Source: Verrucomicrobiota bacterium (lineage in GTDB: Bacteria > Verrucomicrobiota > Verrucomicrobiia > Opitutales > Seribacteraceae). From it: a stretch of DNA of 64,000 bases. The stretch covers positions 1-64,000 of the forward strand of contig JAOLZO010000006.1 in the NCBI GenBank assembly GCA_028343845.1. Direction: 5' to 3'. Below, one piece after another: positions 12,352 through 24,667 of this stretch; the stretch's first letter is position 1; every line of letters begins with the position of its first letter. The position numbers and the translations under genes were made by a program. The notes beneath the pieces were generated by a model that saw only the letters and a program-made list of their open reading frames with translations, searched no databases and was not told the DNA's origin.

Positions 12352-13077
12352 ATGAAATGGGCTTGCTTAACAAGGAATCTGATCAAAGGTCTGTTTGTAG
12401 CCGTTGCCCTGCCTTTTTACCACGGAAACGCTCAAACTCTCATGTCCACGAGGGCGTTTTCACCTGATGCCAATGGATCTTTGGCTTCTGCAAAAATAAT
12501 CCGAGTGGTTCAACCAGGAGTTTTTGACGTTCAGACAACAGATTACGTCGTGAGGATGCGGGCGTGGGGCGTTGGTTTCCCAAAGCGGGATCAACCCGGT
12601 TACGCCGAGGCCCTTTCCTTCACCGAGAACAGACTGGTGCTGACGGCTCCGAACTTTAAGATCAAGAGAGAATTTGACGAGAAGAACCTAAAGGTTGTGG
12701 ACGTAGTGCTCATGGGTGGGAAAATGAACTTTAGTAGGGAGGCGATCGGATTGGGTATTGGTTGGCATTTGGAAAAGGAGACCAACAGGTATGGCCCATT
12801 TGTTCTCGCTCAGTTGAAATCGAAGCGAATGAATGCGGGAGTTTGGGCAAACAATTTCAATTATAACCAGGCGGACCCATTGGCCCGGCCAACCCCTCAG
12901 CTACCTAATGCGTTACGGGATAGAAACACTTTTGTGCCAGGCTTGAGCTATTGGGTCTCGAGCTTGGGCAAAATCCACAGGCCCGGGTGCTCATTTTACG
13001 AACGGGGCAAAGGAGTGCTTACCTCAAAGCCAAGTGGTCGGGATTGCAGGATTTGCGGGGGCAGAAAGCCCAAGTAG
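12352..13077 (+). CDS. Secreted SNase-fold protein, probably catalytically inactive
   Basis: Exported protein of 241 aa. Residues 1-27 form a signal peptide ending near GNAQT. Residues about 45-165 follow the staphylococcal-nuclease fold: VRMRAWGVGFPK aligns with the nuclease strand that normally reads RLLxVDTPE, and GYAEALSFTENRL with its helix. MNAGVWANN matches the usual C-terminal GLW segment. The Asp and Glu of VDTPE are replaced by Gly and Lys, and the expected second Arg is not obvious. The C-terminus (from about 197) has YWVSSLGKIHRPGCSFYE and CRICGG, a His/Cys-rich tail seen after some SNase domains. A structural or binding role seems likelier than catalysis. Confidence 0.8.
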   Translation: MKWACLTRNLIKGLFVAVALPFYHGNAQTLMSTRAFSPDANGSLASAKIIRVVQPGVFDVQTTDYVVRMRAWGVGFPKRDQPGYAEALSFTENRLVLTAPNFKIKREFDEKNLKVVDVVLMGGKMNFSREAIGLGIGWHLEKETNRYGPFVLAQLKSKRMNAGVWANNFNYNQADPLARPTPQLPNALRDRNTFVPGLSYWVSSLGKIHRPGCSFYERGKGVLTSKPSGRDCRICGGRKPK

Positions 13078-14809: not shown

Positions 14810-17800
14810 ATGGACATGTCGGAGCATCCAAGCCCTTATGCTCTTCCTCAACTAAGGATGTGTTATCGTCAGCTGATTTTGCTGACCGTATCTTTGTCGA
14901 TGGGTTTCTCGATTGTTGGAAACGCTCAAACTTTTACAGGGCAGACACTTCACTCCTATTCGTTGGAATGGAATGGTTCGGCCTATCAAGTCTCGGGTTA
15001 CCCGGGTCAAAGCTTCCCACCGCTTTCTTTATACGAGAATCATTACTATGTGTTGGAGAACAATTCAACAATCGGAACGCTTCTTTCGGTCGGGGAAAAT
15101 AATCAATCCTCATATGGGAAACCGGATGTTTGGAACAACGGGGCTCATGGCAATGAAGAGTATCTGCTTATTGCGCCAGACGTAAATTCATCGAGGACCC
15201 TCCATTACTTCAACCCCGATCAGAACGGCAGCACCGGACAACTGAACGTTTTGCCTTATGACTCGCATTTGTTGCATCCTGACTTGAGTCTGGATGATTC
15301 CCGGTTCGGGCATGCGGTGCAAATCAATGACTGGAACCAAACCATCGTGGGTGCTCCCGGTCAGGGTACTTTGGACGGAGCGGTTTACCTGTTTAACCGG
15401 GAATCGAATGGAAGTCAGACTCAATTGCAAATGATGATGCCTTCGGTCGTTGACGGGCAGTTTGGGGCTTCGGTCGAGGCAAATGGGGACTTTCTCGGGG
15501 TTGGGGCGCCTGATGAATCCGGGTTTCAGGGCAAGGCATACTTGTACATGAGGGAATCGAATGGCAGTTACGCCCTTTGGGAAACTCATGCTCCTCCATC
15601 GCCTCAAGCTGGCGACAGTTTTGGCTGGGCTATGGCAATGGACACTTCCTCAATGGTGGTTGCCTCCTTGCAACGCCAGAATGGAGGAAGTGGGCAAGTC
15701 AGCCATTATAGCAAAAACCCAGACAATACCTGGTCTTTCGTTTCCTCCTTTTCCTCGGATGACAACCAAAGCGGAGATGAATTTGGCCATGACCTCGATT
15801 TGTCGGGAAATTACCTGATTGTCGGGGCCCCCATGGCAGATGCAGATGGTAATAATTCGGGGAGCGCTTACATCTTCGAACTTAACGGTTCCTCTTGGAG
15901 CCAGGTGTCCAAGCTTCAGCCCACCGGTCTTTCGATTGATGATAAGTTCGGTTATTCCGTAGCTCTGTCTGGTAACTTGGCTTTTGTCGGCGCCGTGAAC
16001 GGAGACTCGAACGTTTCCAATACGGGGTGTGTTTACGTTTTTGAAAAAACGCAGTCCGGTTGGACGGAAATCTCCAAGATCAACCCGCCGAGCCTGACCG
16101 CAGATCAGTTGTTCGCATCGAATCTTGAGGTCAACGATGATTTGCTCATGGTGGGTGCTCCTCAGCAGGGTGAGGATGGCTTTGGTTATATTTATCGTGC
16201 GGATGCCAATGCAAGCTTTTGGACACTCATCTCGGCCCTCGACTGCAAGGCCGCTGCGTCTTCCAGCAAGAATTTAACCTTTCTTGCCCTCAAGGATGGC
16301 ATGGCCGTGATTGGAAGCCCGGGGGACAGTACCCAGCAATCTTTCGGAGGAGGGGTTCTTGTGTTTTACAATGATGCTTGGAACAGCCTTGCCTTGCCTC
16401 AATTACATCCTGTCATAGACGGAAACTCGACCCCCTTGGTTCATTTTACCGAGGTTGAGGTCTCAAACCACTCTTATACCTATGATTTCAACGGTTCTCA
16501 TCCTTTTTCCAATTCACTGACTTGGACAATCGATGATGCAAACTTCAGTTCGGGGCAGTCGTCGCCGACCATCGATTCGACTACCGGGGTCTTTACCTAT
16601 AGACCGGATGCGAATTTTAGCGGTCTCCATAGCTTTACTATCTCTCTTCACGAAGGGAACCTCTCGGATAGCGTTCAGTTTTCGGTTTTTGTCGATGGTA
16701 CTCCTGACAGTCCGGTCTTTTCAAACCCTGGCGAATTCATTTTGCCCAATGCGATGGAGGGAGACGATTACAACCAATCGATTTCCTTGTTTGATGCCGA
16801 TGGTGACGCCCTTAGCCTTACCTTGAGCGGGGGAGCGCCTCCTGCCAACTTCGCCATAGTGGGCACTAACCTTACCTTTGCCCCTCCAATCGGTGCCGCT
16901 GGCGGTTTGCCTTCCCAGGCTTACACTTTCCAATTAACGGTTTCAGATGGCTCGCTTTCCTCTGTCCAAACGTTCCAGCTCACGGTGTTGGCAAGAAACG
17001 AGCCACCGTACATTTGGGTAGATGGCAATTCGTCCGTTACGGATCTTAACGTCACGATTCCCGAGGATAGCAACGCGACAACTTGGTTTTCCGTCCTTCC
17101 CACTCTGGATTACAATGATTCCGACGGTCACACGATTGAACTGAACGCTTCCGTTTCGCCTGCCCATGGCACTTTGACTCTCGATATCAATGCGGTGGGT
17201 AATCAAAGCGTATTGTATTTGCCCGATGCTGACTTCAACGGAACGGACACTTTTACCATCCGCCTGAACGACGTTGTTGGCACGATGAACAAATACGACG
17301 AATTGACTTTTTACGTAACGGTGACTCCGGTCAACGACCCGCCCGTGATTACTTCGGTTCCCCCGAGTCAATTTGCCCCTGAGGGCGTTTTGTTTGCATA
17401 TGAACTAAACGTTTCCGATCCGGATCAAGGTGATTCTTTCACGGTGGTCTATTCGAATTTGCCAACTTGGTTGAGTTTCAACCCCGGAAGCTTGACTGTT
17501 TCGGGTACTCCGAGTTGGCAGGATTATGAGGAGTCCGGTCCTCGCCTGATCTTGATCGAGGTCACTGATCAGGCTGGGGCAAAGGGGAGTCAGGGTTTTC
17601 TTTTGGAAGTCGTTCCTACGAATTATCCTCCTAGTATCGTTCAGGGCTCTTCGATCACGATTCAAGTTAATGAAGATTCGGATTTTACGGATATTTCGGT
17701 TTCCGCAACCGATCAGGATGAAACCGTTGGACAGTTGAGCTGGGTCTTGGGAACTGCTCCTGCTAATGGCACGGCCAACGTATCCGGGAATGGCACCGTT

Positions 17801-20800
17801 CCCAGCGTGTTGCAGTATAAGCCGGATGCCAATTTTACGGGGGCTGATTCCTTCGTTATCAACGTTTTTGACTCGGGGGATCCTAACGCTCAGGATTCGA
17901 TTACCATTCAAGTTGCGGTTTTGCCTCTAGACGATGCCCCCGCCTTCACAAGCGCGACCAAGGGAATTGCCGTGAGAGGGCATCAGTTTGAATACAATGC
18001 GACCGTATTTGATGCGGATGGCCAAGAGTCTCTGGTCATATCGGTTCTGAGCCCATTGCCCGACTGGGTGACTTTTGTGGATGATGGGAACGGAAGCGCC
18101 CGTTTTTACGGGACGCCGAGCGAATATGACGTCGGACAGAACCTCATTGTTCTGGAAGGTAGGGATTCTACCAATTTGTTTGCCCAGCAAACCTTCTTCC
18201 TGAAGGTAATCGGCGAGAATACGAACCCTACGATCACTCAAGGTGATAGCGTTAGCTTTTCCGCGGTGGAGGACACGACTTGGGTCGGGGACGGCTTGCT
18301 TACCGCATCCGATGCAGATGGGCAGGATTTGCAATGGTCTCTTAGCGGTCAACCAAGTCATGGCTCTGTTATTGCAGAAGGGTTGGGCGGAACGATTCAA
18401 CGCTTGGAGTATATCCCGGATGGGAACTATTCAGGACTCGATGCTTTTGTGGTCAGTGTAAGTGACGGGGTCGGTTCGAGCTCGGTGACAGTTACCTTGA
18501 ATGTTCAGAACGTTGATGACGCTCCGGTCTTTTCAGTCTTTCCTTCCAATTCCTCCATTGTGGACGGCAACCTTCTGAGCCTCCCGATCGTAGTTTATGA
18601 TGCGGATGGGTTGGGCGGGGCCACCTTAAGTGAAACGAGTCCGCTGTGGTTGTTGGTCGATTCGTCAAACCTGACTATCACCGGGAGCATCCCTTTTCAG
18701 GGAACTCCTGCCGTAGCCGACGAAGGAAATCATTCCGTCAGCCTTACGGTTACCGATTCCACCGGTTTGTCCGTGAGCGCCAGTTTGATCGTTACCGTCG
18801 AAGTGCACAATTACCCACCAAGCATCAACGCTGCCAGTTTCAGCGTTCAGATGACCGAGGATCTGGGTGGGACTTGGTCTGCACCCTCGCTTTCCGCCAC
18901 CGATTTGGAAACCAATGCCAGCCTGATGACATGGGGTATTGCCCAAGCTCCAGGCAGGGGTACGGCCGCTTTCGTTACGGCCAATGATCCGTCAAGCCTT
19001 ACCTATTTGCCTGATGGCAACTTTTCGGGAATGGATTCTTTCGTAATCTCGGTTACGGATGGTGGCGGAATACACTCTTCTGCTCCCAAAACCGCCACTG
19101 CAATCGTATCGGTGGAGGTGCTGCCCGTTAACGATGCGCCGGTCTTCACTTCCATACCCGCCACTGACTTGAATGACGGAACGTATTCTTGGAATGACGA
19201 ATCCGAATACGTCTACAAGGTCATATCCTACGATTCTGACTGGGACTGGCAAACACTCGAATTGAACGTCACCTCCGTTTTGCCAAATTGGCTGACCTTC
19301 GTTTCCGAGGGCAATGGAACGGGTACGCTCCGGGGGACCGGAGCGGTCAAGGACAAGGGGACTTATCAAATTCAATTTACGGCTACCGACTCATATGGAA
19401 CGACTGCGGAGCAGAACTTTTCACTTGTTTTGCGCATCGACAATTATCCACCCGTTTTCAAAAGTTCTTCTACAGGCAGTGAGATTACCGAACTAATCGT
19501 CTATTTGGATGAGGATTCAAAAGCTGGCGATGCCAGGGGCTGGCTTACCCCCGTGGATTACTTCGGGGAAGATCCTGATCCGCAACTCCAGAACCCGCTG
19601 AGGGATTTGAAATGGACATTAGGCTCTTCTCCCTTGAGCTTGGCTCAGGTTGAGGTCAATGGAACCGGGCTGCGCCCTCAGGGCTTCAGCTATGAGATTG
19701 CAAAGGATTTCTCTGGGAACGATCTGTTTCACCTCAAGGCATTCGATGGTCACAGGAGTGCTCTGTTGCCTGTCAGGATAGTAGTCCGCCCGGTTCCGGA
19801 CTCCCCGGTTTTCACTAAAGTTCCTCAACCCATCATCTATGGTAAGGTCGGAGCTCTGTTGCAAATTCCGTTGGAGACATCAGATCCTGACGGGGATAGC
19901 CGTAAGATCGAGGTGGTCGGATTGCCTCAAGGTGATGAGGGATTCTGGTTTGGCATTACCGATCTCAACGAGACCAGGGGGTCGGCCATTTTACAAGGCG
20001 TTCCCCCGAATGGCTTGCAAGGAAAGAGGTACCCGATTGCCTTGATTGCGACTGATTCTACAGGAAGATACGCTACTGCAAGCGCCTTGCTTATCATAGA
20101 TGGAGCGAATAGAACCCCCATCATTCAGGGGGGGGAGACCGTGCAGTTTGCTTTTGACGGATCCGGAAACGTCAAGGGCGTGGACTTGGCTTCCATAGTA
20201 GCGACCGATTTCGACGGCGATTCGTTACTATGGTCATTATCTCCCTTGTCCGAGCACAAGTATGGCGTGCCCAAGGTGAGCGGGGTAGGGGCTAGACCAA
20301 CCACGCTCACTTATCTTTCCTATGGTTCGAATACGGCAGATTCTTTCGTTATAAGGGTGTCGGACGGTTTGAGCTTCGATGAACTCAAGATTGTACCCCT
20401 AATCGTATCTTCGCACGAATCCATACAGGTGGATATGACCGAAGGTAACGTAATGGCATATGCCGGGGTCGAATACTCATCCTACTTCTCTCTCTCTCCA
20501 CTAAGCGACAGTACGATTATCGACGCCTCTCTTGATATCGCTCCTTCCTGGCTAAAGGTCAGCAAGGTTTCCCGTGATCTATTTCGATTGCACGGGATGG
20601 TGCCCAAGAGTACCCAAGGCAACTTTGACGTTCGTATCGTTTTCAGCGAGGGAGGGGTAGGCAAGGCGACGAAGAGCGTGACTCTGTCCGTTTCAAGCCT
20701 TTCATCGCCCACGGTTGCCCTTAAGGGAGAACGGTTTCTCAGGTTGAAAAAGGGGGCGTCTTTCGTTGATCCAGGCTATACGGCGACTGGGGCGGGAGGG

Positions 20801-23800
20801 CAGGATTTGTCCAGTTCGGTTATCACCCAAGGTCTGGTTGACCCGAATGCCCTCGGTCTTTTCGAACTCGTTTACAACGTTACCGACCCCATCGGTGGGG
20901 GAGGGGTTTCCGTAAAGAGGTTTGTCCAAGTAGTCGAGGGCAATGCCTCGGTGGTGGTCAAGACCCTTCACCCATTGACTCCGGGAGAAGCGCTTGGCGT
21001 ACTTCCCTCATCGGAGAATACCTTGATTTGGGGGAAAGGAAAAAATGGAACTCAAATCTCCGGCCCTACCAACTCGGTCTCTTTCGTTTCCAGCATTAAC
21101 GAAATGGGCCATTCCATTCGGGCCGAGTTTTTCGAATCCCTTTCCGGTCAGGACGTATCGATTGATGATTGCATTACGACTGCAGATGGAAATTTCCTTC
21201 TGGTTGGCAGATACAAGGGGAATTTGTTGTTTCGCGAATATCAGTTTCTGGCCAAAGGCGAACAAAATCTCTTCATCGTCAAGCTTGATCCGGATTTTAA
21301 TCTGCTTTGGTCCAAGACCCTCTACGGTACAAGTGAAATCGGTTCCCTCAGACTTAGTCAGCTCAAGGACGGATCCCTTCTTTTGGGGGGAGGCTTTGCG
21401 GGGTCACTTACTACGGAGATAGGAACCTACGTTTCAGTCGCCAAAAAAGACCTTTTTCTCTCTCGACTCGATCAGGGTACGGGGGGTTTTATATGGATGA
21501 AGAGGTTTGGGGGGGCCGGTGATGATTCCGTAACGGCGTTGGAAGCCAAGGACGATCTGATTTATCTTGCAGGTAACGTTATCAAAACTGGGTTCGAGCA
21601 GTATTCCTTTCTGTTCGAAATGGATGGAGATGGTTCGATTCAAAGCTCCCTCGCCTTAAAGGGGCTCTTTCAAAATAACGTCAAGGACTTGGCTGTGGGC
21701 GGTGAGAAAATCTATCTTTTGGGGAGTTTCGCGAGCCAACTGAAATTATCGAACGAAAGCCTGACTTCGATGAATAACTCATCCTTTGTTCTCGCTCTCA
21801 AGAAAGGTTTGACGGAGGATTGGGCCGTTGCTTTTTCGGATCAAAGCGAGCCGGTTGGAATAGAGACGGATGCTTTCGGTTACCCTGTTATCCTTAATCG
21901 TTTTTCCGGGAGTTTTGCGATGGATGAAGCCTCGCTCAATCTTTCGTCTCAAGGTTCTGGAGACTTGGTCGTTACGAAACTTGGCAAGGACGGAGGAGAC
22001 CTCGTTTGGCATAAGCAAGTGGGCGGGGCGGGAGATGAAAACTCAACTGCTTTCAAAACCGATCGACATGGACGAATCTTCACCCTCATAAGCACGGATC
22101 AAACATTCCTTCTTGATGGGCTGAGTACAAATGGAGCCAACCTTCTCCTTGCCACCATCGAGTCGAGGGACAAGCCGTCTTTCCCGAACCCTCTTTCGTT
22201 GAGTCTGAGCAAAGGGAACGGTTTCCATACCGAGATCAATGCAACGATTCCAAACGGATTTGCCAGTATGGAGTTGTTGAATGCCCCTTCCTGGGTCTTT
22301 TTGAAAGACGATGGCAATGGTACCGGTTTGATTGGGGGAGTCGTTTCTACGGATGCAAATGAATCATCTGAGTTTAAGGTCAGGGTCATTGATCCGGATG
22401 GAGCCTATGCGGACTTGAACGTTAGCTGTTCGATTTCCGATCTGAATCAATCGGAAGCTCGTACCGATCAATTTCCAAGTTTTTCGTCGTCTCTTGATTT
22501 GGGTGCGAACGTCATCGTTTCCGAGGTATTCCCCTCAAGCGGAATGAAATACGTGATATCTGGAAAATTTAAGGGTTCCCTCCAAGTGGGCAGTTTGAAG
22601 GCAGAGGCGAATTCAGGCTACGACGGATTTGCCATGCAGGTTAATTCGACTGGTACCGCCGAGTCGCTTCTTCACATGGTATCGGATGGTGATTTGGACT
22701 TGGCTGGCACGGTGACGGATGAGGATGGAAATATCCATCTGATCGGTTCTTTTTCAGGAAAGCTTTCAGTCGGCTTTTTGGATATAGTTAGCTCAGGGGG
22801 GCGGGATCTTTTCATCCTAAGCTGGAGCAAGGACGGGGATTTGCTTAATCTGCAAGGAATCGGTGGAGCAGGGAACGAGATTGCAACTTCCGCAACCTGT
22901 TCGGGCCAATCCCTCATCTTGGGAGGATATTTTAACGATTCATTCGATTACGGAACTTCCCAACAGGCTTCGGGCGGAGGATCCGACGGTTTTATCATGT
23001 CGATCTCAGTCTTCAGTTTCTCCCAAGTCAATTGGTTCATGCCCTTGGTTTCTACATCAGATGCGTTCGTTCGCGATGTGGACGTCGGTTCGGACGGTTC
23101 GGTCTTTTTTGTCGGTAGTTTTGCCGGAAACGCTTCTCTCGGAGGTATCCAAGTGGTTTCCCAAGGCTTGTCCGATGGAATTGTCGGTAAGTTGGCTAGC
23201 GATGGCCAAGTCAATTACCTCAAGTCGGGCGGGGGGAAGGGAAAGGACGAAGTTGGTTTCGTAACGGCAGCTTCCGGGTCCAATCTGATTGTCGGAGGAA
23301 CCTTTGCGGAAAAACTCGAGTGGGACAGTCAACGTGTGACTACTAAGGGAGGCAAAGATACCTTCCTCGCTACTTTTTCCGCATCGGGCAATTGTCTTTC
23401 TCTGGTTCATTTAGGAGGTAATGGGAGCGAGGATATAAAGGATCTCATGGGCACCGGTAACAACATCGTGGTTTTAGGGACTTTCAATGGAACCGTTCAA
23501 GTAGGAACGAATACCTTTGATTCAAAGGGTGAAGTAGATTCCTACCTCGCTTTTTATGATCCGAGTCTGAAGACTTGTCATCAATCAGTCCATTTCGGGG
23601 GAACGAGGAATGACTTGCTGAATGCCGCCTCCAGCGCAGTCGAAGGACACTTTGTTTTGGCTGGTCTTTCGGATCGGAGACTTGGGCAGAATCTGGAATC
23701 AAGCCTTGTGGATCCCAGTGCGAGTTCAGCGTCTTTCCTTTCTTTTTATGGACCGGTCGACTTTTCTCCAAGAGTGTGGCCAGCTCCGCCTCCTTCGGTT

Positions 23801-24667
23801 GGAGAATCCTCGTTCTTCGAATACCGTTTTAATTCAGGTCCTTGGCCCAGTGGGGCAAGCTTGGCCTTTTCGGTCCAGAGCCTTCCGTCTTGGGCAAACG
23901 CGAGCCTTGACCAAGACGGGTCTGGAGTGATCTGGGGCATGGCGCCTGCCTCATCAGCGGGGCATCAAAATGCCTTTTCCGTAGATTGCTTGATCAAGTC
24001 CGAGCGCTATGGTGAAAAAAGTATTTCATTCACCACCTCGATCGTCCCGAATGCGGAGATTTTCAAACTGGTTTCTGATTCTACAAGCGATTCGGTTACG
24101 CAATTCCAGAAATATTCGTTTATCGTGAACGTTTTGGGGGATAACCCGGGAGACGTTCTTGTTTTTCCGGAAACCTTGCCTTCATGGATGACGGGAACAC
24201 GACTGGATGATACCAGGTTTCTTCTTGAGGGAACCCCCGTGAGCGGTAATTCCGGGACGAGTCCGGTCAAGTTGCGAGCGAGCAATGCGAGCTATGAAGA
24301 AAGTTTTGAAGTAGACGTAAAAGTCCAGTCCACGCTCCAAAACTCTTCGGTCGGAACCGAGTATGGCAATTGGAAGGAAAGCTGGTTCGGACTCTCGATC
24401 TCTTTTGACAATTCATGGTCCTATCACAGTGCTCTGGGATGGATCTACGTAGAATCGAGCAAGGAGGGCGACGCCATTTGGTTCTGGAATGAAAAGTGGG
24501 GATGGTTATGGACCGATCAAGGTCATTGGGACTCCTCAAAAGGGGAGGGCTTTCTCTATTCCTACCAGACTGGGAACTGGCTTTATTTCAAAAAAGGAAT
24601 TGGAGGTGGGGCTAACCTCGTATTTCTTTATGAAACCAGCAAATGGGACTATTACGAAAGTCAGTGA
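14810..24667 (+). CDS. Giant exported protein: FG-GAP propeller, cadherin/Ig-like repeats, Trp-rich C-terminus
   Basis: 3285-aa predicted surface or secreted protein. Residues 16-40 are a signal peptide ending near GNAQT, and AGGA precedes ATG 14810. Residues about 160-520 hold seven repeats with the (D)xFG...VGAP pattern (a seven-bladed FG-GAP propeller). Residues about 540-1880 hold tandem cadherin-like repeats marked by PDANFSG-type motifs, alternating with Ig-like repeats of the LPxWL...GTP kind. Residues about 1968-2045 look like a bacterial Ig/DUF5011 domain (FVDPGYTATG). Two runs of GGAGDDxV-type repeats (about 2110-2490 and 2560-2980) look like further propellers. The last 105 residues are Trp/Tyr-rich and could be an anchoring module. 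An adhesive role is likely, but nothing shows a ligand. Confidence 0.9.
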   Translation: MDMSEHPSPYALPQLRMCYRQLILLTVSLSMGFSIVGNAQTFTGQTLHSYSLEWNGSAYQVSGYPGQSFPPLSLYENHYYVLENNSTIGTLLSVGENNQSSYGKPDVWNNGAHGNEEYLLIAPDVNSSRTLHYFNPDQNGSTGQLNVLPYDSHLLHPDLSLDDSRFGHAVQINDWNQTIVGAPGQGTLDGAVYLFNRESNGSQTQLQMMMPSVVDGQFGASVEANGDFLGVGAPDESGFQGKAYLYMRESNGSYALWETHAPPSPQAGDSFGWAMAMDTSSMVVASLQRQNGGSGQVSHYSKNPDNTWSFVSSFSSDDNQSGDEFGHDLDLSGNYLIVGAPMADADGNNSGSAYIFELNGSSWSQVSKLQPTGLSIDDKFGYSVALSGNLAFVGAVNGDSNVSNTGCVYVFEKTQSGWTEISKINPPSLTADQLFASNLEVNDDLLMVGAPQQGEDGFGYIYRADANASFWTLISALDCKAAASSSKNLTFLALKDGMAVIGSPGDSTQQSFGGGVLVFYNDAWNSLALPQLHPVIDGNSTPLVHFTEVEVSNHSYTYDFNGSHPFSNSLTWTIDDANFSSGQSSPTIDSTTGVFTYRPDANFSGLHSFTISLHEGNLSDSVQFSVFVDGTPDSPVFSNPGEFILPNAMEGDDYNQSISLFDADGDALSLTLSGGAPPANFAIVGTNLTFAPPIGAAGGLPSQAYTFQLTVSDGSLSSVQTFQLTVLARNEPPYIWVDGNSSVTDLNVTIPEDSNATTWFSVLPTLDYNDSDGHTIELNASVSPAHGTLTLDINAVGNQSVLYLPDADFNGTDTFTIRLNDVVGTMNKYDELTFYVTVTPVNDPPVITSVPPSQFAPEGVLFAYELNVSDPDQGDSFTVVYSNLPTWLSFNPGSLTVSGTPSWQDYEESGPRLILIEVTDQAGAKGSQGFLLEVVPTNYPPSIVQGSSITIQVNEDSDFTDISVSATDQDETVGQLSWVLGTAPANGTANVSGNGTVPSVLQYKPDANFTGADSFVINVFDSGDPNAQDSITIQVAVLPLDDAPAFTSATKGIAVRGHQFEYNATVFDADGQESLVISVLSPLPDWVTFVDDGNGSARFYGTPSEYDVGQNLIVLEGRDSTNLFAQQTFFLKVIGENTNPTITQGDSVSFSAVEDTTWVGDGLLTASDADGQDLQWSLSGQPSHGSVIAEGLGGTIQRLEYIPDGNYSGLDAFVVSVSDGVGSSSVTVTLNVQNVDDAPVFSVFPSNSSIVDGNLLSLPIVVYDADGLGGATLSETSPLWLLVDSSNLTITGSIPFQGTPAVADEGNHSVSLTVTDSTGLSVSASLIVTVEVHNYPPSINAASFSVQMTEDLGGTWSAPSLSATDLETNASLMTWGIAQAPGRGTAAFVTANDPSSLTYLPDGNFSGMDSFVISVTDGGGIHSSAPKTATAIVSVEVLPVNDAPVFTSIPATDLNDGTYSWNDESEYVYKVISYDSDWDWQTLELNVTSVLPNWLTFVSEGNGTGTLRGTGAVKDKGTYQIQFTATDSYGTTAEQNFSLVLRIDNYPPVFKSSSTGSEITELIVYLDEDSKAGDARGWLTPVDYFGEDPDPQLQNPLRDLKWTLGSSPLSLAQVEVNGTGLRPQGFSYEIAKDFSGNDLFHLKAFDGHRSALLPVRIVVRPVPDSPVFTKVPQPIIYGKVGALLQIPLETSDPDGDSRKIEVVGLPQGDEGFWFGITDLNETRGSAILQGVPPNGLQGKRYPIALIATDSTGRYATASALLIIDGANRTPIIQGGETVQFAFDGSGNVKGVDLASIVATDFDGDSLLWSLSPLSEHKYGVPKVSGVGARPTTLTYLSYGSNTADSFVIRVSDGLSFDELKIVPLIVSSHESIQVDMTEGNVMAYAGVEYSSYFSLSPLSDSTIIDASLDIAPSWLKVSKVSRDLFRLHGMVPKSTQGNFDVRIVFSEGGVGKATKSVTLSVSSLSSPTVALKGERFLRLKKGASFVDPGYTATGAGGQDLSSSVITQGLVDPNALGLFELVYNVTDPIGGGGVSVKRFVQVVEGNASVVVKTLHPLTPGEALGVLPSSENTLIWGKGKNGTQISGPTNSVSFVSSINEMGHSIRAEFFESLSGQDVSIDDCITTADGNFLLVGRYKGNLLFREYQFLAKGEQNLFIVKLDPDFNLLWSKTLYGTSEIGSLRLSQLKDGSLLLGGGFAGSLTTEIGTYVSVAKKDLFLSRLDQGTGGFIWMKRFGGAGDDSVTALEAKDDLIYLAGNVIKTGFEQYSFLFEMDGDGSIQSSLALKGLFQNNVKDLAVGGEKIYLLGSFASQLKLSNESLTSMNNSSFVLALKKGLTEDWAVAFSDQSEPVGIETDAFGYPVILNRFSGSFAMDEASLNLSSQGSGDLVVTKLGKDGGDLVWHKQVGGAGDENSTAFKTDRHGRIFTLISTDQTFLLDGLSTNGANLLLATIESRDKPSFPNPLSLSLSKGNGFHTEINATIPNGFASMELLNAPSWVFLKDDGNGTGLIGGVVSTDANESSEFKVRVIDPDGAYADLNVSCSISDLNQSEARTDQFPSFSSSLDLGANVIVSEVFPSSGMKYVISGKFKGSLQVGSLKAEANSGYDGFAMQVNSTGTAESLLHMVSDGDLDLAGTVTDEDGNIHLIGSFSGKLSVGFLDIVSSGGRDLFILSWSKDGDLLNLQGIGGAGNEIATSATCSGQSLILGGYFNDSFDYGTSQQASGGGSDGFIMSISVFSFSQVNWFMPLVSTSDAFVRDVDVGSDGSVFFVGSFAGNASLGGIQVVSQGLSDGIVGKLASDGQVNYLKSGGGKGKDEVGFVTAASGSNLIVGGTFAEKLEWDSQRVTTKGGKDTFLATFSASGNCLSLVHLGGNGSEDIKDLMGTGNNIVVLGTFNGTVQVGTNTFDSKGEVDSYLAFYDPSLKTCHQSVHFGGTRNDLLNAASSAVEGHFVLAGLSDRRLGQNLESSLVDPSASSASFLSFYGPVDFSPRVWPAPPPSVGESSFFEYRFNSGPWPSGASLAFSVQSLPSWANASLDQDGSGVIWGMAPASSAGHQNAFSVDCLIKSERYGEKSISFTTSIVPNAEIFKLVSDSTSDSVTQFQKYSFIVNVLGDNPGDVLVFPETLPSWMTGTRLDDTRFLLEGTPVSGNSGTSPVKLRASNASYEESFEVDVKVQSTLQNSSVGTEYGNWKESWFGLSISFDNSWSYHSALGWIYVESSKEGDAIWFWNEKWGWLWTDQGHWDSSKGEGFLYSYQTGNWLYFKKGIGGGANLVFLYETSKWDYYESQ
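15290..16370 (+). repeat. Seven FG-GAP propeller repeats in the giant protein
   Basis: Seven protein-level repeats of about 50-55 residues begin near residues 163, 215, 268, 322, 377, 430 and 484. Their markers include SRFGHAV, GQFGASV, DSFGWAM, DEFGHDL, DKFGYSV and, for blade six, DQLFASN. Each is followed by a VGAP-like strand; blade seven keeps only VIGSPGD. Seven copies fit one closed integrin-alpha-like propeller. Confidence 0.75.
16440..20450 (+). repeat. Tandem cadherin/Ig-like repeats in the giant protein
   Basis: At least five clear repeat ends share Y-x-PD-(A/G)-(N/D)-(F/Y): YRPDANFSG, YLPDADFNG, YKPDANFTG, YIPDGNYSG and YLPDGNFSG. Two weaker ones follow (YEIAKDFSG and the TYLSYGSN region). 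Between them lie Ig-like units with NYPP or NxPP joints and LPTWL/LPDWV/LPNWL...GTP motifs. The spacing is about 100 residues per unit. Confidence 0.75.

Follow-up and report, generated by a model that had tools for sequence, protein, structure and literature searches.

The window analyzed here (the whole stretch of 64,000 nucleotides from a draft genome of a Verrucomicrobiota bacterium) contains the long ORF of the sequence-only reading; it starts with ATG and is open throughout. The ORF encodes a giant exported protein. The features of the locus are listed below.

14810..24667, + strand: reading frame for the 3285-aa giant exported protein
14810..14926, + strand: signal peptide at the N-terminus, probably cleaved behind residue 39 (...IVGNA-QTF) (by eye)
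15257..16369, + strand: FG-GAP_2 repeats (propeller), approximate limits by reading (Pfam)
16427..20689, + strand: tandem Ig/cadherin-like repeats (Big_9, He_PIG, Cadherin_4/5), approximate limits by reading (Pfam)
20717..20932, + strand: Bact_surface_Ig-like domain, residues 1970-2041 (Pfam)
21047..23599, + strand: pair of propeller-like repeat regions with approximate limits, unproven (reading only)
24359..24664, + strand: Trp-rich terminal module, residues 3184-3285 (HMM match, AlphaFold)

The signal peptide was positive by a loose heuristic and in three of the four settings of a strict test; it was missed when only the first ATG was allowed. Translation might instead begin at Met 17. An FG-GAP propeller was recovered by Pfam (FG-GAP_2, E 4.6e-32, the best stretch being residues 308-356), but only five stretches pass, and the seven blades proposed from the sequence were not confirmed. 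The region that follows fits the expected ten or so cadherin/Ig-like repeats: Pfam reports 10 stretches of Big_9, seven of He_PIG, six of Cadherin_4, seven of Cadherin_5 and two of Bact_surface_Ig-like, counts that are not additive, as the models overlap one another. The two further propeller-like regions (approximately residues 2080-2480 and 2600-2930) were recognized by reading only. A “GG.D.FI...” motif can be seen by eye to recur there, but sequence searches of Pfam, NCBIfam and the PDB found no match, and residues 2050-3185 compared with themselves by BLAST gave no repeat.

The genes around the giant ORF do not encode transporters. Upstream lies the gene of a 409-aa protein without a Pfam match and downstream that of an M48 protease; a DXP synthase is encoded on the opposite strand. 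At 12352-13074 (+) the window also encodes a signal-peptide-like protein with a Cys-rich end motif (HRPGC...GRDCRICGG), which matches nothing in Pfam at 0.001 or in NCBIfam at 0.01. A long run of flagellar genes occupies 31615-61453 (+), with FliF, FliG, the export ATPase, FliM, FlhB, FlhA and FlgI among the 10 ORFs scanned; its last gene encodes an FlgK-like protein of unusual length (1139 aa).

The Trp-rich C-terminus is real and exceeds chance. The last 102 residues contain 12 Trp residues, compared with at most four in any other 102-residue window of the protein (binomial P about 2e-7), and they match nine other places in the same genome. Thus the module is present at 10 places in this draft (2.5 Mb, 107 contigs, 63.7% complete), the weakest of the nine others having E 0.001. 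A profile built from these ten copies (A1) found the module in 7 of 387 genomes across the phylum, the source genome included, and an improved profile (A6) found it in 8 of 387 genomes drawn across the phylum. Within the order, the module was detected in 90 of 372 genomes and in 34 of 100 genera (profile, E <= 1e-4). Copy numbers per genome in this survey are lower bounds, and many are at least about 14. All 42 listed genomes of the same family are module-positive, and none of that family is among the 20 listed out of 282 module-negative genomes.

In a motif search, at least one match was found in 31 of 34 module-positive genomes, with maxima of 25 in G515, 20 (at 18 places) in G561 and 16 in G536, whereas 23 module-negative genomes gave 0-2 matches each (one or two in 7 of the 23) and the reversed motif, used as a control, gave 0-3. 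Motif matches are not copy numbers: some arise by chance and a single module can match twice. G561 has two pairs of matches 60-63 bases apart, and a pair of such kind sits within one module. The proposed restriction to a lineage is supported. The module is concentrated in the order Opitutales, and a scan of the genomes of 84,980 species, which uses short peptide patterns and reaches only closer relatives, confirmed 16 loci; the records behind them are without exception titled Opitutales, Opitutia, Puniceicoccaceae or Verrucomicrobia.

Two occurrences lie outside this core. The genome G023, which belongs to another order, contains a shortened module seven times, in each case ending 0-3 residues from the stop, and 11 other genomes of its order have no module at E 1e-5. 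This distribution looks like lateral gain and local spread, and it fits a scenario in which the module would have been acquired from elsewhere and then spread over passenger proteins. Several proteins with the shortened module are clustered close together on contigs 45 and 20 of G023 (L133-L135). G114, from another family of the phylum, has a single copy that ends 13 residues from the stop. An origin of the module in phages or plasmids was rejected, as tblastn of one module gave no match in either collection. Homogenization within genomes was rejected as well: the mean identity of modules is 0.297 within genomes (206 pairs) and 0.290 between genomes (4072 pairs).

The proteins that carry the module are otherwise unrelated. 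We ran Pfam on 29 of them (nine from the source genome and 20 from others), and all families named here are over the Pfam cut-offs. The passengers include trypsin-like and subtilase proteases, CAP, FGE-sulfatase and G8 with a CEMIP beta-helix; proteins with cadherin and other Ig-like repeats, TSP3, Flg_new_2, FG-GAP or a beta propeller; and also a nucleoside phosphorylase (PNP_UDP_1), AhpC/TSA, a cyclophilin with FKBP, and DUF3179. Seven of the 29 have no Pfam match at 0.001. A spread of this kind is typical of a tag rather than of an enzyme-specific domain. In one protein of the source genome (L016) the module is followed by an FGE-sulfatase domain (Pfam); the same order of domains can be read, by reading only, in L046 and L060 from another family.

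We then recorded the position of the module in a census of 120 ORFs, collapsed at 85% identity to 106 clusters. The sample was hand-picked, mostly from high-scoring hits, and supplemented with the motif hits of G450 (13 of 13) and G480 (7 of 11). Loci that overlap others or were taken for other ends (L001-L010, L019, L020, L027, L033, L039, L044, L049 and L106-L109) were left out, and L133-L135 and L142-L144 were added later, outside the census. Among the 106 distinct modules, 87 are C-terminal (at most 20 residues from the stop), nine are N-terminal, six are near-C-terminal with tails of 30-147 residues, and three are internal; the position of the remaining one is undecidable because the contig ends. 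The nine N-terminal modules start at most 75 residues from the ORF start and all follow a signal peptide (by eye). In G450, which is a single contig, the stretches around the 13 motif hits contain 13 distinct module ORFs; in nine of them the module is C-terminal, in three N-terminal, and in one it has a 54-residue tail. A stretch of G561 contains a module with a 74-residue tail. The internal and tailed copies indicate that a free end is not strictly required. The expectation that the module would occur at C-termini only therefore describes most copies but does not hold strictly.

Each of the 120 census ORFs has one module. The only two-module protein seen is L142 (G405, contig 5), a 786-aa open frame that ends in a tandem pair of shortened modules; the second of the pair forms the C-terminus itself. 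On a tree of 93 modules (80 residues or longer, from genome-mapped loci; 92 columns), which is poorly resolved, the N-terminal label needs at least eight changes for nine rows, and the starred branches force at least two. Since the N-terminal cases are scattered over the tree, the position of the module seems to have changed between the ends more than once.

The link to proteins with signal peptides, suggested by the sequence-only reading, was also recovered. Signal-peptide-like starts were found in 29 of 52 module ORFs vs 86 of 331 controls under a strict rule and in 45 of 52 vs 190 of 331 under a loose one; the controls are other ORFs of at least 200 aa from the same stretches, and the rule is a home-made heuristic with a high background. 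Two passengers (L096 and L114) start with twin-arginine signals, by eye. We saw neither random positions of the module nor cytosolic carriers (location being judged from signal peptides only), nor did the module turn out to be a known enzyme domain. In general, the data partly support the sequence-only reading and point to a lineage-specific tag on exported proteins that appears usable at either end.

AlphaFold predicts a compact structure both for residues 3182-3285 of the giant protein (pLDDT 88.3, pTM 0.78, 10 strands; 43 sequences) and for the module of a relative, L090 (pLDDT 93.5, pTM 0.82, ten strands; 73 sequences). The prediction is a confident all-beta fold, in which the last 100 or so residues would form a self-folding domain of repeated aromatic beta-hairpins. 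In the alignment, W67 is invariant and W9, G11, W20, G27, W28 and W48 are nearly so. Aromatic columns (20/22, 28/30, 40/42, 48/50, 58/60 and 67/69) enclose aliphatic ones (21, 29, 41, 49, 59 and 68), an alternation expected if each hairpin has an aromatic face and an aliphatic one. Two of the hairpins, R2 and R3, resemble each other, with a mean BLOSUM score of 25.5 against -11.1 for shuffled sequences.

The module gave no significant match to a known family. Pfam gave nothing significant for eight modules up to E 1 or for 43 modules up to E 10, where the best match was OCRE at E 0.017 and where HMMER filters remove most hits above about 0.1 even at that limit. NCBIfam gave nothing significant for eight and then for 73 modules (best E 0.021, a beta-lactamase model). 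Among solved structures compared by sequence, the best E-values were 0.094 and 0.32. Foldseek at E <= 0.001 found no PDB match for either model and no BFVD match for the L090 model. In a second-look structure comparison, the top match of the giant protein's module was an insect amine-binding protein (Z 4.7, rmsd 3.5, 85 aligned). For the L090 model the best match was the RBM10 OCRE domain (Z 4.4, rmsd 3.2, 52 aligned). A Z under 8 may mean no more than a common arrangement, and such scores establish neither novelty of the fold nor kinship with a known one.

We compared the presence of the module with that of known export and anchoring systems; the sequence-only reading had proposed such a check for a particular secretion system. 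No such tie was found: the presence of the module does not track exosortase, the T9SS tail, secretin or LicD. Exosortase (PF09721) is encoded by 33 of the 36 module-positive genomes, by 21 of the 23 module-negative ones and by nine of the 10 genomes behind the named loci. With similar shares in both sets there is no association, and the exosortase link was rejected. G445, G491 and G459 have modules and no PF09721 match (drafts, 85-94% complete). Secretin was found in 54 of 57 genomes; it is missing from module-positive G426 and G445 (drafts, 85-94% complete) and from one module-negative genome. A secretin link was rejected on this distribution. The T9SS tail PF18962 was detected in two of 57 genomes and is over the cut-off in one of them, which is module-negative. 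On contig 62 of G451 (around 72851), a weak T9SS-tail match falls on one uninterrupted frame reported as 21,533 aa long. LicD is a marker of choline decoration. It was found in none of 34 module-positive and in four of 23 module-negative genomes, which would make choline itself an unlikely ligand.

PEP-CTERM tails (PF07589) occur in none of the 16 genomes tested from the source family but in 41 of the 43 tested from the rest of the order. Exosortase is nevertheless present in 12 of the 14 family genomes tested, and these exosortases would be either orphans or enzymes serving an unrecognized tail. The source genome has two exosortase loci (L107 and L108), the latter located among apparent polysaccharide and ABC-export genes (by reading). 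In other families both the module and PEP-CTERM tags are present (e.g., G119 and G450), so the replacement of PEP-CTERM by the module is only an idea.

We propose that the module is a non-covalent envelope-retention tag, a reading by analogy that we consider about as probable as its negation. The proposal draws on the aromatic hairpins and the placement at either end, as in choline-binding modules, together with the lack of a CW match and of LicD, which suggest another ligand. A passenger with a Sec or Tat signal would cross the inner membrane, and the module would then fold. It would bind non-covalently to part of the envelope or of the surface coat, either a polysaccharide or a protein exposed there, and the propellers, Ig repeats or enzymes ahead of it would thereby stay on the cell. 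The ligand is presumably common to the lineage. At 13 module loci, we found no ligand, receptor or conserved neighbor gene, barring the synteny of two sister genomes.

Other readings have to be weighed against this one. The module could be a sorting or secretion signal, recognized by an outer-membrane machine that exports the passenger, similarly to the T9SS C-terminal domain. The many unrelated passengers, the C-terminal majority and the restriction to a lineage agree with this, but with nine of 106 modules N-terminal and three internal, the module does not act like the sorting signals of T9SS or PEP-CTERM, which are tied to one terminus. The rarity of PF18962, with its sole over-cut-off case in a module-negative genome, and the module-positive drafts that lack secretin or exosortase also argue against it, and we regard it as unlikely. 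An aromatic-rich predicted beta fold, and hydrolases and adhesin-like proteins among the passengers, would suit a carbohydrate-binding module that keeps enzymes and adhesins attached to food outside the cell (algal or particle polysaccharide). However, a nucleoside phosphorylase, a redoxin-like protein, a cyclophilin/FKBP protein and DUF3179 have no obvious polysaccharide substrate, and Pfam gave no carbohydrate-binding family for the modules; this explanation seems quite improbable to us.

Alternatively, a multi-protein surface matrix might be assembled through contacts between modules or between a module and a short peptide. This reading would gain from the second-look match of the L090 model and from the weak matches of five of 43 modules to Pfam OCRE, a binder of proline-rich peptides (excerpts of PMC5127646). 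Both OCRE signals are below significance, the Z score may reflect a common arrangement, and for the giant protein's own module OCRE is not among the best 50 structural matches listed; we regard assembly as quite improbable as well. The retention tag is the reading that we carry forward.

A terminal tag on exported proteins is a known kind of element. The module as a family appears new, given that no Pfam or NCBIfam model matches it significantly and no description of such a domain was found in those parts of the open PubMed Central literature that were covered. One might go further and imagine a surface-display system of this lineage, in which an aromatic beta domain with its own fold, at either end, takes at least 10 proteins per cell to one envelope receptor and has taken over the role of PEP-CTERM in the source family; we hold this wider picture to be unlikely. 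A retention tag of the proposed kind would explain how cells of a little-studied group, represented here mostly by assemblies from metagenomes and single cells, hold on to their giant adhesin-like proteins and enzymes. One sequence model would then mark many uncharacterized proteins as surface proteins, and the search for the envelope ligand of this group would have a defined domain to start from.

Several known systems resemble the module in part. The T9SS C-terminal domain has an all-beta fold. Por_Secre_tail (PF18962) is similar to the module in its length of about 80-100 residues, its all-beta structure and its diverse cargo, but its model fails to match the modules, and the module is not confined to the C-terminus. 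PEP-CTERM proteins, sorted by the exosortase (EpsH) system, number 65 in Verrucomicrobium spinosum (excerpts of PMC1569441). In both cases many unrelated signal-peptide proteins per genome carry the tag; in contrast, the module has no Pro-Glu-Pro, transmembrane helix or basic tail (sequences by reading), is a predicted folded domain and can be N-terminal. OCRE is a six-stranded domain of splicing factors. It is a small antiparallel beta-sheet in which aromatic side chains form arrays, and it binds proline-rich peptides via exposed tyrosines (PMC5127646, in part). The likeness in beta-sheet and aromatic arrays is not significant by sequence or structure and is suggestive at most.

By analogy, choline-binding modules would be the closest working model. 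In Streptococcus pneumoniae, aromatic-rich hairpin units of about 20 residues occur on diverse surface proteins and hold them on the wall non-covalently; they are mostly C-terminal, with a location behind the signal peptide in LytB and in the N-terminal region in LytC (PMC4929436, as far as the excerpts go). The module differs in that the modules scanned (eight, then 43) gave no CW_binding hit and in that it is one compact domain of ten predicted strands, unlike the long choline-binding solenoid. Like CW_binding_1, it has aromatic hairpin units of about 20 residues and is mostly C-terminal and in some proteins N-terminal.
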